Part shown: positions 10,566 through 20,440 of the stretch, in pieces
How positions within the stretch are numbered: the first letter of the stretch is position 1
Layout of the letters: each line of letters opens with the position of its first letter
DNA from: Ignavibacteria bacterium
GTDB lineage: Bacteria > Bacteroidota > Ignavibacteria > Ch128b
DNA: 64,000 nt
Reading direction: 5' to 3'
NCBI GenBank assembly: GCA_016873845.1
Contig: VGVX01000004.1
Location: 1-64,000 of the forward strand
Notes under the pieces: generated by a model
What the model was told of the DNA's origin: nothing
Seen by the model: only the letters and a program-made list of their open reading frames with translations
The model's database searches: none
Translations under genes and position numbers: made by a program

Positions 10566-10793
10566 CTATTTAGTATAAATGTTAATTGTATAAGAAACTA
10601 ACTCAGGAGAATTTAGAGTTATGTCCAGACGATATTTAAAATTCTTATCCAGCTTCAAGTAGTAAGCGATCAAATTGATAATTTTACTCAATGCAACTTC
10701 ATATTCGTCTGACCAAACTTCGCACTCTTTTATCGTAGGAACTGAGGCAGTATACCCATCAATTTCCTTTTTAATATCAATATGTAATGTCAT
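10566..10793 (-). CDS. Small HicB-like / UPF0150-type protein
   Basis: A 75-residue protein whose sequence (IDIKKEIDGYTASVPTIKECEV, then EVALSKIINLIAYYL) fits the beta-beta-beta-alpha partial RNase H fold of HicB-like and UPF0150 proteins. No C-terminal DNA-binding domain and no HicA toxin gene is present, so it is not a recognisable toxin-antitoxin pair. The ATG overlaps the deoC stop as TAATG. The role is unknown. Confidence 0.6.
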   Translation of the reverse strand: MTLHIDIKKEIDGYTASVPTIKECEVWSDEYEVALSKIINLIAYYLKLDKNFKYRLDITLNSPELVSYTINIYTK

Positions 10794-11662
10794 TAATAGC
10801 CGCCACTCTTCTCATCTTTGATGTTTGTTACAATTTTTACAGAAGCACTAGCACCAATACGATCAGCTCCACTGGCTATCATCATATCCGCATCTTCCCT
10901 CGAACGGATTCCACCGCTTGCTTTAACTCCCATAGCACCACCGACAACTTTTCTCATTAATGCAATATCTCCCACTGTCGCACCTCCCTTCGAAAATCCA
11001 GTTGATGTTTTTACAAAATCCGCTCCGGCTTCTTTGCAAATAATACAAGCTTTTACTTTTTCTTCATCTGAAAGAAGACAAGTTTCAAGAATTACTTTTG
11101 TAACGATCTTTTTTGGTTTCGCTTCAAGAACAACTTGCTGGACATCTTTGAATACATAATCTAACTCTTTCGATTTGAGCATTCCAATATTTAGAACCAT
11201 ATCAATTTCTTTCGCACCATCCTGAATAGCTTGCCGAGTCTCTGCTCGTTTGATTTCAGTTGAGGAGCTTCCCAATGGGAAACCGATCACAGTACAAACT
11301 TTAACATCAGTTCCTTGTAATTGCACCGCACAATACTTGACGAATGATGGATTTACGCATACTGACACAAAATGATATTGCCTTGCTTCATCACAGAGTT
11401 TTTTGACTTCTTCGATGGTCGCGTCCGGTTTAAGAAGTGTGTGATCGATCATTCGTGCAAGATCAAGCTCAAGAGGTTCAGGGATTCCAATTGTAGTTGT
11501 TATTCTCTCAGCACCATTATCGATAATATTTTGAACTGCATCTTTCTTGTGAAATACGCAATGTCCGCAAGGAGCACAAATCCCCTCATCGCAATAAGAT
11601 TTTTGAAGTGAATGTTCGATCAATACTTCTTGTATTATTCTATCAACAATTGTTTTACGCAT
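10793..11662 (-). CDS. deoC: Deoxyribose-phosphate aldolase with N-terminal extension
   Basis: Class I aldolase that splits 2-deoxyribose-5-phosphate into acetaldehyde and glyceraldehyde-3-phosphate. The catalytic core starts near residue 70 ([12 protein letters not shown]). A Lys in the VTKVILET strand is the expected Schiff-base residue, and the [13 protein letters not shown] and GVKASGGIR motifs complete the site. About 70 extra N-terminal residues contain an amphipathic helix ([19 protein letters not shown]) and a cysteine cluster ([12 protein letters not shown]). Such helices act as targeting peptides in bacterial microcompartments, and pduT/pduS homologues lie about 5 kb away. The ATG overlaps the folD stop by 8 bases. 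Confidence 0.93.
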
Positions 11663-13577: not shown

Positions 13578-15227
13578 ATGCGAATTCCGATTGAGAAAGC
13601 AAGCTTCGTAGTGTGCGATGTCGAAACAACTGGACTCAGCCCGCAAAGAGAATCTATAATCGAAATTGCATTAGTGAAAATCGAAAATCTCAAAATCACA
13701 GATAAATTTTCTACTCTATTAAATCCTCAGCGATTCATTCCTAATTATATTACGGAGATGACCGGAATCCGAAATGAAGATGTAATTAATTCACCGACTT
13801 TTTCTAATGTATCATATAAAATTCAAGAGTTCATCGGAGATTCAATTTTTGTAGCTCACAATGCAAAATTCGATTACAATTTTCTTTTACATTCGTATCT
13901 GCGTGAGGAAGAAATGCCCATCCGCCTTGAGACACTCTGCACACAGAGGTTAGCAAAACGGATCTTTCATGGAATTGGAAAAACCTCACTCACTGCTTTA
14001 ACAAGATTTTTCGGATTTAGGAACACTGCCAAACACAGAGCACTCGGTGACGCTAAAGTTACTGCTCAAATTCTATTGAAACTGATTGAAGAAGGAAGAA
14101 ATAAATTAAAGTTCGACACACTCGATGAACTTTTAAAGCTGCAATTCCAACCAATCAACAAAGCCAAGTTCTTTTCTACAAGAAAATCTTTAGCAGATTC
14201 TGTTTCAAAACTTCCTTCTGGACCTGGCGTTTACTTTTTTCACGATAAAAAAGGAACTGTGATATATATCGGCAAAGCAAAAAATTTGAGGTCGAGAGTG
14301 ATCTCATATTTTCGTGATTCTAACAGCGACCGGAAAGTAAAAAAAATAGTTCGTGGAGCACATCATCTTGATTTTATCGAAACCGAAAGTGAACTCTCTG
14401 CTTTTTTGCTTGAATCTGAATTGATTAAAAAACACAAACCAATTCATAATACAGCACTGAAAATAATCAGAAATTATTCTTTCATCGGAGTAAGTGCCGA
14501 CAATGAATTTCCGAAACTTGAAGTTACCCGCAGACTCGTTAATAATGGGACTATGTATTTCGGTCCATTCAACCGGCGAGAAACAGCAGAGGAGGTATTG
14601 GATATCATTTCAAAATCGACAATGCTGCGAGAGTGTGAAGACAAAGAATTGAAGAAAAATCGTTCATGTTATTTGTTGGATATAAAGAGGTGCCTTGGTC
14701 CTTGTGTAGAGAAAGATATTTCAACGCTCTATGATGAGGAGTTAAGAACTGTGAAGGATTTTCTCACTGGAAATAACACAGTGATTCTCAATCGCCTGAC
14801 AGAAAAAATGAAGGAATTCGCTGGTAGAGAAAAATTCGAAGATGCTGCTAAAATCCGGGATACAATTCAGGCAATTTTGAAGAACATTGGTAAAATTAAA
14901 GTCCTTAAAGAGCCGATCAATGCCATCAATGCACTCATCTTCATTTACGGCGGTGAAAATGTTTCTGAGGTCATTTCACTTAAAAATGGAATCGTTCAAT
15001 CCATCAAAGGAGTGAGAGATTCCGAAAAGACGTTGTTTGAACTATGTGATGAGTATTTTATCCGCAGTACAGCGGATTTTGATTTGCCATTAAACATTGA
15101 GAAAATAAAGATCATCTCCAATTTCCTTGTGAGTAAAAAAGCGAGATACAACATAGTTTATACTACCGATATAAATTCTAAAGAAGAACTTTTTGAAATA
15201 GTGCAGAAGAAATTAATTGAGACATGA
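13578..15227 (+). CDS. DnaQ-like exonuclease fused to UvrC-type GIY-YIG endonuclease
   Basis: Two nuclease domains in one chain. Residues about 5-175 form a DEDDh 3'-5' exonuclease (VVCDVETTGLSPQ, IFVAHNAKFDYNF, HRALGDAKVT) like the epsilon subunit of DNA polymerase III. Residues about 210-380 form a GIY-YIG domain of UvrC/Cho type (GPGVYFFHDKKGTVIYIGKA, YFGPFNRRE, RCLGPC). A UVR-like helix pair follows (residues 405-440). Such fusions are known in actinobacteria and others, and are thought to work in DNA repair. The C-terminal RNase H-like half of UvrC is absent. The ATG at 13578 is preceded by weak purines. The stop is one base before the next ATG. Confidence 0.88.
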   Translation: MRIPIEKASFVVCDVETTGLSPQRESIIEIALVKIENLKITDKFSTLLNPQRFIPNYITEMTGIRNEDVINSPTFSNVSYKIQEFIGDSIFVAHNAKFDYNFLLHSYLREEEMPIRLETLCTQRLAKRIFHGIGKTSLTALTRFFGFRNTAKHRALGDAKVTAQILLKLIEEGRNKLKFDTLDELLKLQFQPINKAKFFSTRKSLADSVSKLPSGPGVYFFHDKKGTVIYIGKAKNLRSRVISYFRDSNSDRKVKKIVRGAHHLDFIETESELSAFLLESELIKKHKPIHNTALKIIRNYSFIGVSADNEFPKLEVTRRLVNNGTMYFGPFNRRETAEEVLDIISKSTMLRECEDKELKKNRSCYLLDIKRCLGPCVEKDISTLYDEELRTVKDFLTGNNTVILNRLTEKMKEFAGREKFEDAAKIRDTIQAILKNIGKIKVLKEPINAINALIFIYGGENVSEVISLKNGIVQSIKGVRDSEKTLFELCDEYFIRSTADFDLPLNIEKIKIISNFLVSKKARYNIVYTTDINSKEELFEIVQKKLIET

Positions 15228-15228
15228 C

Positions 15229-16758
15229 ATGATATTAAAATCATTTTCTCCAAACACAATAAAATTATTAGGACAGATCGGTTGCACTGATCCAACTGAA
15301 GTTGAAGCAATCGTTAAGACGGCAAAAGATGCCCAAGTACATTGGCAGGAAATTGGAATTAATAAAAGAATCAACGAATTGAAAATTATTCGCGATAACT
15401 TATTTTCCAAGTACGCAGAAATAGCTCAACTAATCTCAGACGAAAACGGAAAACCATTTGCTGAAGCAATTTCGTCTGAGATAATTCCCACACTTAGCGT
15501 TTTTGATTATTACCTTGCAAAATCCAAAAAGTATTTGAGACCACAAAAAGTACGCATCAAGCTGCCAGTAATGATCCACAAAAAAAGTTGGATTGAATTT
15601 GAGCCATGGGGAGTCGTTGGAATAATTAGTCCATGGAATTATCCATTACTTTTACCGATGGGACAGATCATTCCAGCATTGATTGCAGGCAACAGTGTTG
15701 TTTTCAAACCATCTGAGTTCACTCCACTAGTCGGAAGCTGGATTGAAAAATTATTCAATGGATCAAACTTACTGAAGAATGTTTTTAATGTTATTTATGG
15801 TGAAGCTCAGGTGGGTCAATCACTCGTGAATAGCAAAATCGATAAGTTATTTTTTACAGGAAGCACAAATGTTGGAAAGATCATCTCTAAAAATGCTGCT
15901 GATAAACTTTTGCCCATCTCGCTTGAACTTGGGGGGAAGGATCCAATCCTTGTGTTGAAAGACGCAGACCTTGATAGAACTGCCCAAGGAATTGCTTGGG
16001 GAGCGCTGACAAATTCTGGTCAAACTTGTGTTTCGGTTGAGAGAGTCTATGTTCATGAATCTCTACATTACGAATTAATACACAAATTGATAGAGCATGT
16101 TTCAAGATTGAAATTGTATAATGGCTCTGAATATTACGATTTAAGTGCATTAAAGACAGAGCAGCAGGCAAATAAAGTTAAAGAACATATTCAAGATGCA
16201 GTCCGAAAGGGAGCGAAAATTATTTTCGGCGGCAGACAGATTGATGAAAATAAATTCGAGCCGACAATTTTAACTGACGTTAATCATGATATGCTCGTGA
16301 TGAAAGAAGAGACTTTTGGACCAATAATAGCCATTAAAAAAGTCAGTGATGACAATGAGGCAATCAAATTTGCGAATGACTCTGATTATGGATTATCCGC
16401 ATCAGTTTGGACTAAGGATATTTCACATGGAAGAGAAGTTGCACGAAAAATAAAGAGTGGTTCTGTACTAATCAATGATTGCATATCATATTTTGGTACA
16501 AGCGAAGCAGTTGTCGGTGGAATAAAATTGAGCGGCACCGGCAGAGTTCATGGGAGAAGCGGATTGATGGAAATGGTTTATGAAAAGTATTACAACTCTG
16601 ACTCCTTCACGTGGCAAAAAAAGTTTTGGTGGTTTCCTTACGGAAATAAAGCAACTGAGAATATGAAATTTGCTTTAACTTTTCTGTACGGGAGAAATGT
16701 ATTTAAGAGATTGATGGCTGGGATTAAAATTCTACCTGCACTATTCAAAAGAAAATAG
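15229..16758 (+). CDS. NAD(P)-dependent aldehyde dehydrogenase
   Basis: Classical (non-acylating) aldehyde dehydrogenase that oxidises aldehydes to acids. Motifs: PWGVVGIISPWNYPL (nucleotide site), FTGSTNVGK, ELGGKDP (catalytic Glu), NSGQTC (catalytic Cys) and EETFGPI. The C-terminal tail (KFALTFLYGRNVFKRLMAG, then a basic end) is hydrophobic and may contact membrane, as in long-chain aldehyde enzymes. The ATG at 15229 lies one base after the upstream TGA, so the two genes are coupled; a TTG at 15217 is less likely. The substrate is not known. Acetaldehyde from DeoC is possible, but this is not the acylating PduP type usual in microcompartments. Confidence 0.9.
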   Translation: MILKSFSPNTIKLLGQIGCTDPTEVEAIVKTAKDAQVHWQEIGINKRINELKIIRDNLFSKYAEIAQLISDENGKPFAEAISSEIIPTLSVFDYYLAKSKKYLRPQKVRIKLPVMIHKKSWIEFEPWGVVGIISPWNYPLLLPMGQIIPALIAGNSVVFKPSEFTPLVGSWIEKLFNGSNLLKNVFNVIYGEAQVGQSLVNSKIDKLFFTGSTNVGKIISKNAADKLLPISLELGGKDPILVLKDADLDRTAQGIAWGALTNSGQTCVSVERVYVHESLHYELIHKLIEHVSRLKLYNGSEYYDLSALKTEQQANKVKEHIQDAVRKGAKIIFGGRQIDENKFEPTILTDVNHDMLVMKEETFGPIIAIKKVSDDNEAIKFANDSDYGLSASVWTKDISHGREVARKIKSGSVLINDCISYFGTSEAVVGGIKLSGTGRVHGRSGLMEMVYEKYYNSDSFTWQKKFWWFPYGNKATENMKFALTFLYGRNVFKRLMAGIKILPALFKRK

Positions 16759-16849: not shown

Positions 16850-17401
16850 TCAGATCATCTCGTTCAACAGTTCATTTCTTGGCTGTGGAATAACGATCTT
16901 ATTAACGAGCAATCCCTTTTGTGAAACAACATGAGCACCAGCATCAACGGCACTTTGAACTGCAGCAACTTCACCTGTAAGAGTAACAAAAGCTTTTCCG
17001 CCAAGTGCCATTGCAAGCCGTACCTCGATTAATTTCACATTTGATGATTTAACTGCAGCATCGGCCGCTTCAATCAATGAGGCAACAGAAAATGCTTCAA
17101 CTATCCCAAGCGCTTCAAGGAGTTCTATTTTTGTTGTACCTGCAATTGCAGGGAACACCGATTCATGAACATTCGGTATTACGAAGGTATCAATTACTGA
17201 AAAATTTCCAGCCACGGCACCTGCATCCACACTTGATTGAACTGCTGCCACATCACCCCTAACCAATACCATATATTTGCCTGAACAGATTGTTCTTGCA
17301 AGCACTAAATCAACCTCAGCAGCTTTTAACATCGCATCTGTTACCTGAAATCCTGCCGCTATGCTGCTTAATTCAATTAAGCCTATTGAGTTTTTATCCA
17401 T
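16850..17401 (-). CDS. pduT: PduT-like tandem-BMC-domain microcompartment shell protein
   Basis: A 183-residue protein with two BMC domains (about 5-88 and 97-180), the trimeric BMC-T type. Each domain ends in a similar GDVAAVQSSVDAG / GEVAAVQSAVDAG helix. The first domain has VDLVLARTICSGKY; its Cys39 matches the PduT cysteine (Cys38) that binds a [4Fe-4S] cluster at the trimer pore. In Pdu compartments PduT pairs with PduS to pass electrons across the shell. A pduS homologue lies upstream on the same strand, separated by a four-helix-bundle gene. No BMC-H or BMC-P shell gene is in the window. ATG start. Confidence 0.92.
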   Translation of the reverse strand: MDKNSIGLIELSSIAAGFQVTDAMLKAAEVDLVLARTICSGKYMVLVRGDVAAVQSSVDAGAVAGNFSVIDTFVIPNVHESVFPAIAGTTKIELLEALGIVEAFSVASLIEAADAAVKSSNVKLIEVRLAMALGGKAFVTLTGEVAAVQSAVDAGAHVVSQKGLLVNKIVIPQPRNELLNEMI

Positions 17402-17431
17402 TTCTGTCTATATGTTTAATAAACCATTATA

Positions 17432-17462
17432 AAATACTAAATACTAATCTCGAAATCCTAAA
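17432..17462 (+). repeat. Left inverted repeat flanking the four-helix-bundle gene
   Basis: AAATACTAAAT, eight further bases, then CGAAATCCTAAA. The same two blocks occur in inverted orientation at 17869-17900, so the intervening four-helix-bundle gene is bracketed by an imperfect inverted repeat. This resembles the A/T-rich repeat tracts often seen beside such genes. Confidence 0.5.
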
Positions 17463-17491
17463 CAATTCAAAATTATTAAATGTTTTTAAAA

Positions 17492-17848
17492 CTATTTCGA
17501 TTTTTCTAGAATCGCTCCAAATATTTTCATTAGTTCGGTAGCTTCTTGAATTAACGATTGTCTTTCAGCCTCGCTACTGTCCAAACACCTAGTAAGTTTA
17601 AGCCAATATCTACTCTCTTTTGCTTCCTTTCGACAGATTTTAATTCTCATTAAAAAATCTTTTTTACCTAATGATTCGTTTGCTTCTATGTAATTTGCAC
17701 CTACAGAGCCCCCGGCTCTGGTCAGTTGCTTACATATTTCAATATTCTGCAAATTCTTCGGGACTGAATCGATGAAGGCAATAATCTTCTTAGCAAATTC
17801 TAAAGTTCGATCCTCTAGATCATATTTTTTGTCCTTTGGAATTTCCAA
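17492..17848 (-). CDS. Four-helix-bundle protein (23S rRNA IVS / S23 family)
   Basis: A 118-residue, all-helical protein. LEFAKKIIAFIDSVPKN, then QLTRAGGSVGANYIEANE, then KDFLMRIKICRKEAKESRYWLKL are the hallmark segments of the 23S rRNA intervening-sequence (IVS) protein family, whose fold is also shared by Avd proteins of diversity-generating retroelements. The molecular role of most members is unknown. The TTG at 17848 is the only reasonable start. The gene sits between the pduS and pduT homologues and is bracketed by inverted repeats (17432-17462 and 17869-17900), suggesting it arrived as a cassette. Confidence 0.85.
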   Translation of the reverse strand: MEIPKDKKYDLEDRTLEFAKKIIAFIDSVPKNLQNIEICKQLTRAGGSVGANYIEANESLGKKDFLMRIKICRKEAKESRYWLKLTRCLDSSEAERQSLIQEATELMKIFGAILEKSK

Positions 17849-17868
17849 CTGCTAAAACTGTAACATTT

Positions 17869-17900
17869 TGTTTAGTTTTAGGATTTCGAATTTAGTATTT
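17869..17900 (-). repeat. Right inverted repeat flanking the four-helix-bundle gene
   Basis: Read on the minus strand it gives AAATACTAAAT, then CGAAATCCTAAA, the same blocks as at 17432-17462 in opposite orientation. It overlaps the last codons and stop of the pduS homologue (GAG AAA TAC TAA), so the insertion may have set the present end of that protein. Confidence 0.5.
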
Positions 17901-19205
17901 CTCGATGTTGATATATTTTTCGTTGACTTGAGCAACTCTTCCACTTATGGATGAGTGAATATTGGCTCCCAAATTATTTTCTCCTACTTCAGCAATCAAT
18001 TGTCCAATATTAACTACTTCCCCTTCTTTAACTGTAGGTTCGGCTTTTTTACCGATGTGCTGCTGCAATTTAATTTTAACTGTGCTGGGAGAGAAATCAA
18101 TTTCTTCAAATGGAGTTTCAACTTCATAATCATCCACTTTCAATCTTTTCCGCAGCTGCTTCTGAGGAACTCTTCTATGTTCTTTCATTGGGTGAACTGT
18201 TACGTCTTTCTCTTGAATGAATTTCATTCCAGTAGATCTCATTGATTTTTTCGATTCATCACAAGCTTCCTTCGGAAAAAGATCTTCAGGACAAGCGTAA
18301 AGCGTACATAATCCGCAAGCACAACAAAGTTCTGCCCACTGATTCCAATTCTCAGCACCAGACAGTGTAAATCCTAAGCTTCGCATTACTTTGTGCGGCT
18401 GCACTTCATATCCAAGCAGATACCGCGGACAAAATTCTGTACAATAACTGCACTGATCGCATGCCGACTTTCCAATACGATTCATACTCTGTATAGAAGC
18501 AGATTTTCTCGTAACTAAAAAATGTTCTTTTGGCAGGAGTATTAATCCAGCAGTCGTTTTAGTGACAACATCATCAAGATCAAATGATAGATTGCCCATC
18601 ATTATTCCACTGACAAAAATTCCAAATTCCTTTTCAATTGAACCGCCGGCAATTTCAATTAAATCTCGAAATGATGTTCCAATAGGCACCCAAAATGTTT
18701 TTGGATTACGTACAACACCGGAAACAGAAACAATTTTTTTCGTTACCGGAATATCTTGACTGGCCAAGAAAACATTATAAAGTGTTTCGACATTGTTTAC
18801 TACGCATCCAATCTGAAGTGGAATCCCGGCTGGTGGAATTAGTTTTCCGGTCGCTGTGTAAACTACTTCATACTCATCTCCTGAGGGATAAAAATCTCCG
18901 AGGAAAGAAAATTCTATATTACTTTTTTTAATAAATGGCTGGATTTCCTCAATGGCGGCTACATGTTTTTCCTTAATTCCGAATGTACCTTTTTTTGCAC
19001 CAGTCGAATCCATCATCAATTTCATTCCTTCAATAATTTCTGAAGGAAAAGCCTTCATCAATTCAAAATCTTTATGGATTAAAGGTTCGCATTCGGCTCC
19101 ATTCGCAATGACATACTCAACTTTTGATTCAGCTTTAACATAAGTTGGGAACCCGGCACCCCCTGCACCAACCACACCATATTTTTTTAATTTTTCAGAG
19201 AGCAT
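17892..19205 (-). CDS. pduS: PduS-like flavin/iron-sulfur electron carrier (RnfC family)
   Basis: A 437-residue homologue of PduS/RnfC. It has an N-terminal GVVGAGGAGFPT glycine-rich motif with ANGAECEPL (flavin/NADH region), an SLBB-like domain near residues 165-215, two [4Fe-4S] motifs (CDQCSYCTEFCP and CCACGLCTLYACP, residues about 245-305), and a C-terminal lipoyl-like barrel. PduS reduces cobalamin and exchanges electrons with PduT at the microcompartment shell. Here it probably recycles NADH or passes electrons outward with the PduT homologue. The ATG lies two bases after the upstream phosphatase stop. Confidence 0.9.
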   Translation of the reverse strand: MLSEKLKKYGVVGAGGAGFPTYVKAESKVEYVIANGAECEPLIHKDFELMKAFPSEIIEGMKLMMDSTGAKKGTFGIKEKHVAAIEEIQPFIKKSNIEFSFLGDFYPSGDEYEVVYTATGKLIPPAGIPLQIGCVVNNVETLYNVFLASQDIPVTKKIVSVSGVVRNPKTFWVPIGTSFRDLIEIAGGSIEKEFGIFVSGIMMGNLSFDLDDVVTKTTAGLILLPKEHFLVTRKSASIQSMNRIGKSACDQCSYCTEFCPRYLLGYEVQPHKVMRSLGFTLSGAENWNQWAELCCACGLCTLYACPEDLFPKEACDESKKSMRSTGMKFIQEKDVTVHPMKEHRRVPQKQLRKRLKVDDYEVETPFEEIDFSPSTVKIKLQQHIGKKAEPTVKEGEVVNIGQLIAEVGENNLGANIHSSISGRVAQVNEKYINIEKY

Positions 19206-19207
19206 GT

Positions 19208-20440
19208 TTAATTCATTCTTTTAACCGTGACAATTGTTTTATCATCAGAATATTGTCCGCGTGCACTGAATTTTTGAACATCTTCGATTAACGATTGTGT
19301 AATTTCCTTTGAGCTTAAGTGTCGAAGTTTTTGAACAAGTCGGATAAATTTTTCTTCTCCATAGAAATTTCCTGCTTCATTCATCGCTTCGGTGATCCCA
19401 TCAGTATAAATTACAAGCACATCTCCAATTTCAAAATTAATCATCGAAGTTCCAAATTTTGAATTGTAAGCCGGGCCGATCAGAGGACCAGTTGCATCTA
19501 GCGAAACAATTTTTTTTGAATTTGCTTTTAGAAAGATCGGACTGTTATGACCGGCATTGCAATAAATACATGCTCCATTTTTATCATCTGAAAGCTCGAT
19601 GTAAAAAAGTGAGACAAATCGATCATCAGGAAATATTTTGTAGACGAGATTATTTATTTTCTTCATTAGTGGAGAAGTTTTTGTTAGATAACTTACTCCC
19701 ATTCTCAAAGCCGCTGATACATAGAATGCTTCTGCGGCTGCAGCAAATCCTTTGCTCGCAACATCTCCAACCGCAACAGCAAACTTATCATCATCCACCC
19801 CGATATTTAGGTAATCATAGAAATCGCCACCGACAATTCTATCCGGAACCGAAATGCCGAACATCTCATAGCCAGCAAATTTAAATTCGTGTTCGGGAAG
19901 AATTCGTTTCTGCAGTTCGCGAGCCTGGTCGATATCATCGGTCAAAATTTTAGTACGTGTTTCAATTCTCTTACTTCTCAGAGTAGACGTTAAAGCAGTC
20001 CCAATAATATTAAGTGTATAAAATAAAGACTGATTAATTTCAGGGGCAGAGAATGCCATTAAATATTGATAAAGCGGGTAATCTTTTCCGCGAAGTTTTT
20101 CACCTATTCCGGTTGCAGAATATTTAAATATACCTTTCTGTCGTAGGTAGAGATTCGTTTCAGTGGTTAAAATTGTTCTTTCTTTGGCTATCAGCTCAAA
20201 GATTGGATAATCCGTAACATTAATTGTGAAATTCGGTTTTATCTTCTCGACTTCCCCTTCTTGAGCAATCAATTTATATTTTGACCTTGAAGGAGTAAGT
20301 TTCCATATTCTTCCACCGGTTACTGCGAACGATTCACTTGCAACAACTTCCTTTAGAACATTAATCAGAAGTTCCTCTTCAGACTTAAATGGCTGATTCG
20401 TGATCTTTTCTATTGTTCTATATAATTTTCTTTGATCCAA
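19208..20440 (-). CDS. SpoIIE-type PP2C serine phosphatase
   Basis: A 410-residue protein. The N-terminal 160 residues are an uncharacterised, possibly GAF-like sensor. The C-terminal part is a SpoIIE/RsbU-type PP2C phosphatase: ERIVGGDFYDYL-like PDRIVGGDFYDYL, AVGDVASKGFAAA, YCNAGHNSP and LVIYTDGITEAMN, with the metal-binding aspartates in place. Such enzymes usually dephosphorylate an anti-anti-sigma (STAS) protein in partner-switching control; no partner is visible here. TTG start. It is the first gene before pduS with a two-base gap, so it may be co-transcribed with the microcompartment genes. Confidence 0.9.
   Translation of the reverse strand: MDQRKLYRTIEKITNQPFKSEEELLINVLKEVVASESFAVTGGRIWKLTPSRSKYKLIAQEGEVEKIKPNFTINVTDYPIFELIAKERTILTTETNLYLRQKGIFKYSATGIGEKLRGKDYPLYQYLMAFSAPEINQSLFYTLNIIGTALTSTLRSKRIETRTKILTDDIDQARELQKRILPEHEFKFAGYEMFGISVPDRIVGGDFYDYLNIGVDDDKFAVAVGDVASKGFAAAAEAFYVSAALRMGVSYLTKTSPLMKKINNLVYKIFPDDRFVSLFYIELSDDKNGACIYCNAGHNSPIFLKANSKKIVSLDATGPLIGPAYNSKFGTSMINFEIGDVLVIYTDGITEAMNEAGNFYGEEKFIRLVQKLRHLSSKEITQSLIEDVQKFSARGQYSDDKTIVTVKRMN

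Follow-up and report, generated by a model that had tools for sequence, protein, structure and literature searches.

An isolated PduT/PduS gene pair as a likely satellite of a dispersed microcompartment in Ignavibacteria

A stretch of 64,000 nucleotides (nt) from an Ignavibacteria bacterium (G000:C4:1-64000, i.e. contig C4 of the source genome G000; called the window below) encodes a PduT-like shell protein and a PduS homologue. We are fairly confident that this gene pair is a satellite locus of a dispersed FRAG-type bacterial microcompartment (BMC), a deoxyribose-phosphate metabolosome from which electrons are exported via PduS and PduT. The pair is probably the electron outlet of a protein organelle with scattered parts, which, judged from its genes, breaks down the sugar of DNA. 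Two enzymes are the likely cargo and are predicted to be targeted to the compartment: a deoxyribose-phosphate aldolase (DeoC) extended at its N-terminus, and an acetaldehyde dehydrogenase of the acetylating type that has a helical tail. A previous sequence-only reading of the window had left two options, a satellite of a shell locus elsewhere or a pair working without a shell, and had suggested genome-wide searches for PF00936 and PF03319 genes, pduL, and acylating aldehyde dehydrogenases. The satellite option was borne out, the shell-free option was not, and the likely cargo DeoC (10793-11662) had not been mentioned.

The source genome has a size of 2.98 Mb on 162 contigs and is 98% complete, and its closest relatives are Ignavibacteria. 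Contigs C12, C10, C3, and C52 are relevant in addition to C4. The relative set consisted of 61 genomes, G000 and 60 relatives of the same class, which were divided into BMC-positive and BMC-negative genomes by the presence of BMC-P genes. In addition, named genomes were searched in a wide scan that used the PduT alignment and yielded 445 relatives, the best 80 of which were kept. Of these 80 loci, 33 stem from metagenome-assembled genomes (MAGs) of the Ignavibacteria group, among them Stygiobacter electus and Melioribacter roseus, and 47 stem from Acidobacteria and one Armatimonadetes MAG combined. Statements on cited papers refer to the parts of their text that were at hand.

The PduT-like protein and the PduS homologue

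The PduT-like gene (16850..17401, minus strand) encodes a BMC-T shell protein of 183 amino acids (aa) with two BMC domains. PF00936 matched in two tandem stretches (161.4 bits, cut-off 24.5), and the protein belongs with the PduT family structures PDB 3nwg, 3pac, and 3n79. Residue 39 is a cysteine within TICSGK that aligns with the cysteines of 3pac (TICPGK) and 3nwg, and its codon is found at 17285..17287 on the minus strand, counted from the start at 17401. CSGKY at position 39 matches the pore motif C-[PSA]-G-[KRS]-[YF] that has been defined for PduT (PMC6325248). The pore cysteine was invariant in all 14 aligned relatives (from 15 genomes; G001 was left out because its PduT is split over contigs) and in all 80 loci of the wide scan. 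Cys39 is predicted to be a ligand of a [4Fe-4S] cluster across the PduT trimer.

The PduS-like NADH:FMN/dicluster oxidoreductase (17892..19205, minus strand) has a length of 437 aa and contains, in this order, the domains Complex1_51K, SLBB, Fer4_17, and RnfC_N. These four domains (pfam01512, 10531, 13534, and 13375) are the ones given for PduS in PMC6325248. A glycine-rich nucleotide motif, GAGGAG, is present at residue 13, and four-Cys motifs are present at 249 and 294. The identity to the annotated PduS of Salmonella is 36% over 96% of the length. For PduS, NADH oxidation and PduT binding have been reported, and the passage of electrons out of the shell has been proposed (PMC2982820, PMC6325248). 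Domains, alignment with the PDB structures, and motifs therefore agree with the previous description of a BMC-T protein with pore Cys39 and an RnfC-like PduS homologue encoded on one strand. Both reading frames are intact, and every Fe-S cysteine is kept.

Shell genes elsewhere in the genome and their co-occurrence with the pair

On the window contig, PF00936 matched the two PduT domains only and PF03319 had no match, and the earlier statement that no BMC-H or BMC-P gene lies within the 64 kb is thus correct. Genome-wide, the two families yielded two BMC-H and three BMC-P genes on other contigs. The PF00936 genes of G000 are the window PduT and two genes that lie together on C12 and encode BMC-H proteins of 93 aa and, with a tail, 175 aa; the BMC-H passes the EutM cut-off (139.5 versus 133). 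Two of the BMC-P genes form a pair on C10, between deoB and a sigma-70-type (rpoD-type) gene, and the third lies singly on C3 and adjoins dprA. The shell parts are thus distributed over four contigs (C4, C12, C10, and C3), none of which carries a classical operon. PduT and PduS have one full-length match and one match, respectively, in the whole genome. The pair is therefore not a silent duplicate of a pduT/pduS pair within a full BMC operon, which the sequence-only reading had named as the finding that would overturn it.

BMC-P genes were found in 24 of the 61 genomes of the class. A full-length PduT match with an adjoining PduS was present in 15 of these 24 (the PduT of G001 being split over two contigs), and the pair was present in none of the 37 BMC-P-negative genomes, in which no PduS match of at least 46% identity occurred. 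In the wide scan, PduS accompanied PduT in 79 of the 80 loci, the exception being L217. The hidden Markov model (HMM) for BMC-P had no match in the flanks of the 80 loci and that for BMC-H matched a single open reading frame (ORF) per locus, hence no other shell gene is present; the full 10 kb on both sides were available for only 35 of the loci. BMC-P was searched in the genomes of 50 of the 80 loci (47 from Acidobacteria/Armatimonadetes and 3 from the Ignavibacteria group), and it was found elsewhere in 49 of them. The exception, G084 (L199), is a MAG of 4.5 Mb whose completeness is not known and in which the gap between PduS and PduT is 2160 nt. Because the flanks of 80 loci are free of shell genes, yet BMC-P is present in 49 of 50 genomes, the isolated pair is a recurrent satellite in at least two phyla that is optional for the shell but hardly ever occurs without one.

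Several observations were made on the shell genes themselves. Between families f1 and f10, the small BMC-H (L008:9706-9987, compared with L130, L131, L133, and L134) has an identity of 97-99%. The surrounding genes are mostly 25-60% identical between the two families, and the conservation of the shell protein is thus unusually strong at this distance. The second BMC-H (L008:10003-10530) has a variable linker followed by a C-terminal segment (…LNVHELRxLARS…FPIKGRxISRANRxxLIDYF…) conserved in 5 of 5 aligned sequences. No significant Pfam match was found for this segment, which has a SAP-like appearance by eye. Near the third BMC-P gene, an ORF in the region L010:12683-13006 (G000:C3) resembles, by eye, the antisense strand of an rRNA operon, and such an operon is probably located some 2 kb away from this BMC-P gene. 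One relative has a compact extra locus (L329, G017:C45:466000-484000) with three BMC-P genes, an aldehyde dehydrogenase-like gene, a BMC-H gene, and an ACI-type class II aldolase gene.

Predicted cargo enzymes

The DeoC gene (10793..11662, minus strand) is located 5 kb from the PduT/PduS pair. Its product is a DeoC-type pfam01791 aldolase (TIGR00126, 287.2 bits, cut-off 117.3) that is not encoded in a shell locus and carries an N-terminal extension of about 62 aa. An HMM of the extension scored at least 72 bits in 24 of 24 BMC-positive genomes and at most 3 bits in all 23 BMC-negative genomes that were inspected. As the HMM was built from the 24 positive sequences, the weight of this contrast is carried by the negatives and by the raw N-termini. 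A DeoC match was present in 30 BMC-negative genomes, 7 of which were left out as remote (38-40% identity, with the match beginning no earlier than residue 66), and 7 further BMC-negative genomes had no DeoC match. In G003, DeoC is divided between two contigs, and its parts entered the analysis separately. Residues D154, K218, and K247 of the core, presumably the catalytic set of the DeoC family, were invariant in the 25 aligned sequences (from 30 loci). In the AlphaFold model of the window DeoC, a helix at residues 3-20 is followed by a low-confidence stretch at 19-61 and then by a confidently modeled aldolase core.

On the DeoC tree, the extension-less DeoC of family f8, which lacks a shell, falls within the BMC-positive group, with modest support (82 and 91). 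G053 of family f3 is a second case that lacks both, and the rest of f3 has both. In the genomes of family f10, DeoC is encoded about 8-12 kb from the BMC-H pair.

A short helix-like stretch at the N-terminus of DeoC was also found in 41 of the 47 pair-bearing genomes of Acidobacteria/Armatimonadetes, mostly followed by a Cys-rich linker. In G080, G065, G069, and G107 the helix-like stretch is kept and the linker is short or without the full Cys pattern. The DeoC loci of 45 of these 47 genomes were inspected (G091 and G104 were left out), and 9 of the 45 were included in the DeoC tree. RpiB adjoins DeoC in 39 of the 45 loci. In the Armatimonadetes genome G097, the gene run RpiB-BMC-P-BMC-P-DeoC occurs together with a separate PduS-PduT pair, the PduT of which is 78% identical to that of the window.

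The Cys-rich stretch corresponds to residues 23-36 of the window DeoC and has the form CPGCxQRCxQTC in many Acidobacteria; the number of cysteines varies between families, from 2 to 4 or more. From its sequence, the stretch could be a site for a metal or an Fe-S cluster.

The previously suggested search for acylating aldehyde dehydrogenases also had a positive result. Among the five PF00171 genes of G000, a single one, on C52, encodes an acetylating aldehyde dehydrogenase (AldDH), which passes TIGR02518 (646.9 versus 620.1). Its helical C-terminal tail ends in GTGISEDEIDKIIKEFKK, and this pattern is recognizable in every intact AldDH C-terminus of the BMC-positive relatives. The enzyme was found in 22 of the 24 BMC-positive genomes, and the two genomes in which it was missed are 79% and 68% complete. 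Among the 37 BMC-negative genomes it occurred once, in G043, with 44% identity and without the tail. In five genomes (G023, G032, G041, G058, and G049), a distance of about 14-17 kb separates the AldDH gene from a BMC-P gene.

DeoB adjoins the BMC-P pair in 18 of the 21 genomes that show the pair (exceptions: G040, G049, and G017); in G037, G046, and G054 the third BMC-P gene was the only one found. The product of DeoB is the substrate of DeoC.

Proposed function and alternative explanations

In the proposed pathway, DeoB would supply deoxyribose-5-phosphate, and the encapsulated dehydrogenase would convert acetaldehyde to acetyl-CoA with formation of NADH. PduS at the inner face of the shell would reoxidize NADH via flavin mononucleotide (FMN) and two [4Fe-4S] clusters, and the electrons would reach a cytosolic acceptor by way of the [4Fe-4S] cluster that sits in the pore of PduT. 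As an optional outlet for electrons, the pair would thus restore NAD+ within the shell, and it would be neither shell-free nor a duplicate.

Several results weigh against this proposal or parts of it. PduT did not reach the cut-off of the NCBIfam equivalog TIGR02526 (129.9 bits versus 250.3), and therefore PduT-like is the safe name. The pair is absent from 9 of the 24 BMC-positive genomes, and thus the shell can work without it. The helix of the DeoC extension is modeled with low confidence, at a predicted local distance difference test (pLDDT) score of about 54. Its hydrophobic moment in the window DeoC is unremarkable (2937 of 5000 shuffles were as high); this test does not discriminate, as the C-terminal tail of the ACI type fails as well and an ordinary core helix passes. 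The BMC label can be placed on the DeoC tree with 2 changes, one of them family f8, and at most one independent pair lies on well-supported (starred) branches. With so few changes, the perfect co-occurrence of the DeoC extension and BMC genes is not statistically independent. RpiB was found near DeoC in none of the 24 BMC-positive Ignavibacteria, a result that applies to the flanks of the loci since RpiB was not searched genome-wide. PduL (PF06130), which the previous reading had also proposed to look for, was not found in G000, and on this count the compartment does not qualify as PDU. An encapsulated phosphotransacylase was considered in its place and rejected as a marker: phosphotransacylases of family PF01515 are present in all 61 genomes and do not discriminate. 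Without PduL and with the ubiquitous PF01515, coenzyme A (CoA) recycling inside the shell is unexplained.

The strongest of the competing explanations, though still an unlikely one, retains the pair as a shell satellite and replaces the signature enzyme by a class II aldolase of the fuculose/rhamnulose-phosphate type, as in PVM-like and ACI loci, so that DeoC would be cytosolic or secondary. A class II aldolase is indeed encoded 4 kb from the third BMC-P gene of G000, class II aldolase-BMC-H-BMC-P triplets occur in most of the opened loci of pair-bearing Acidobacteria and in the relative G017, and such aldolases are part of the PVM-like loci of Melioribacter roseus and Solibacter (Axen 2014). 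However, the G000 enzyme has 222 aa and lacks the C-terminal tail of the ACI-type enzymes of 256-259 aa. A class II aldolase is found near the third BMC-P gene in just 7 of the 20 Ignavibacteria regions searched, where it travels with GFO-type and rarA housekeeping genes. As it is tail-less and not conserved beside the third BMC-P gene, the G000 enzyme was rejected as signature enzyme. Moreover, the Acidobacteria with a class II locus also have the DeoC with the N-terminal helix, in most cases beside rpiB (see the counts above).

The remaining alternatives concern the pair itself. PduS might act as a cobalamin reductase for a B12 enzyme, a role that has been proposed in the Pdu compartment, and the PduS of Salmonella and Citrobacter is a corrin reductase (PMC2982820). 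However, loci that lack B12 enzymes, among them GRM and SPU, encode PduS as well (Axen 2014). The predicted core enzymes, DeoC and AldDH, are in turn independent of B12, and we regard this role as improbable. Less credible again, and already largely refuted, is a free soluble redox complex without a shell; the absence of other shell genes from the flanks of all 80 loci and the pair without a BMC-P match in G084 would fit it, but none of the 37 shell-negative relatives has the pair, 49 of the 50 pair-bearing genomes have BMC-P, and the completeness of G084 is unknown. Hardly any credence is likewise given to a decaying remnant of a lost compartment. The two genes are split by an S23-type ORF in this genus, but the frames are intact, the Fe-S cysteines are kept, and the genome has one copy of the pair and has retained shell genes. 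Taken together, the satellite of a dispersed deoxyribose-phosphate metabolosome is the preferred explanation.

Neighboring genes

The genes for PduT and PduS are not directly adjacent in the window, but are separated by an ORF of 118 aa on the same strand (17492..17848, minus strand), which encodes an S23-type four-helix bundle. S23 denotes the type found in 23S rRNA intervening sequences. The ORF is also present, in shortened form, in G001 of the same genus and not in other members of the family. Most relatives lack an intervening ORF, and the median gap between the PduS and PduT matches in the 80-locus scan is 22 nt. Directly upstream of pduS lies a SpoIIE-type (PP2C) phosphatase gene (19208..20440, minus strand; PF07228). 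It was found at this place in 26 of the 33 Ignavibacteria-group loci of the scan, and it is not a conserved upstream neighbor in the 47 Acidobacteria/Armatimonadetes loci. The aldehyde dehydrogenase encoded in the window at 15217-16758 was considered as a compartment enzyme and rejected; it is of the non-acylating type and reached no specific cut-off among the 25 families listed.

Comparison with known microcompartments and significance

In the sections of the BMC catalogue at hand (PMC8217296), no signature enzyme is named for FRAG, and ACI is among the types listed without one. The extended DeoC tracks shell genes in two phyla and adjoins them in a third, which offers a concrete and testable substrate. 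The pair is optional in closely related shells (15 with versus 9 without it), and these therefore provide a natural case for asking whether electrons leave the compartment. In a metaproteome study, a protein named 'EutM' was reported as expressed by a Melioribacteraceae bacterium, and ethanolamine use was inferred (PMC12583861). Since the G000 BMC-H scores above the cut-off for EutM, this assignment could instead reflect the compartment described here. A wider generalization is tentative, and we would sooner doubt than defend it: FRAG of Ignavibacteria and ACI of Acidobacteria might both be deoxyribose-phosphate metabolosomes, in which a PduS/PduT wire to respiration replaces an internal alcohol dehydrogenase and the parts are deliberately encoded apart among housekeeping genes.

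Electron export has already been published as an idea for the Pdu and GRM compartments (PMC2982820, PMC6325248). As in these systems, PduS has the same domains in the same order and two four-Cys motifs, PduT has the pore cysteine, and the genes are organized as an adjacent pair. In contrast to them, it is encoded apart from all other shell and enzyme genes, the PduS identity to Salmonella is low (given above), and no B12 or glycyl-radical signature enzyme is encoded nearby (B12 enzymes were not searched genome-wide). What is new is the isolated-satellite habit, the dependence on shells encoded elsewhere, and the link of DeoC to FRAG and ACI, parts of which may already be contained in the supplementary data of PMC8217296. 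An assignment of DeoC to FRAG or ACI compartments was not found in the open-access PMC literature, a scope that excludes supplementary data, preprints, and subscription journals.

For the ACI type, a class II aldolase and a BMC-P triplet have been described (PMC8217296). The pair-bearing Acidobacteria have the type-defining class II aldolase-BMC-H-BMC-P triplet and, in addition, the isolated PduS-PduT satellite. They differ from the ACI description in their DeoC-RpiB satellite with the N-terminal helix, which is unmentioned for ACI in the text of PMC8217296 at hand. For HO genomes, the same source notes a possible targeting-like extension on the product of a remote pfam01791 gene.

The SPU type is defined by the enzyme pair DeoC and RpiB (PMC8217296). 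A DeoC-type aldolase and an AldDH are shared with it, and in G097 a single run contains the genes for RpiB, two BMC-P, and DeoC. Unlike SPU, the Ignavibacteria have no main locus with BMC-H and BMC-P together, and RpiB is not encoded beside DeoC; for these two reasons the compartment was not filed as SPU. FRAG compartments, in turn, have been described from Ignavibacteriae; their shell genes occupy as many as six places, FRAG1-7 lack an obvious signature enzyme, and the BMC-P triplet consists of one gray-clade, one orange-clade, and one other member (PMC8217296). The compartment of G000 is similar in its shell genes in several separate places without a defined locus, its three BMC-P genes, and its occurrence in Ignavibacteriae. 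It is dissimilar in that the extended DeoC, the acetylating AldDH, and the deoB linkage point to deoxyribose phosphate. In summary, the compartment fits FRAG in its layout and resembles SPU in its predicted chemistry.

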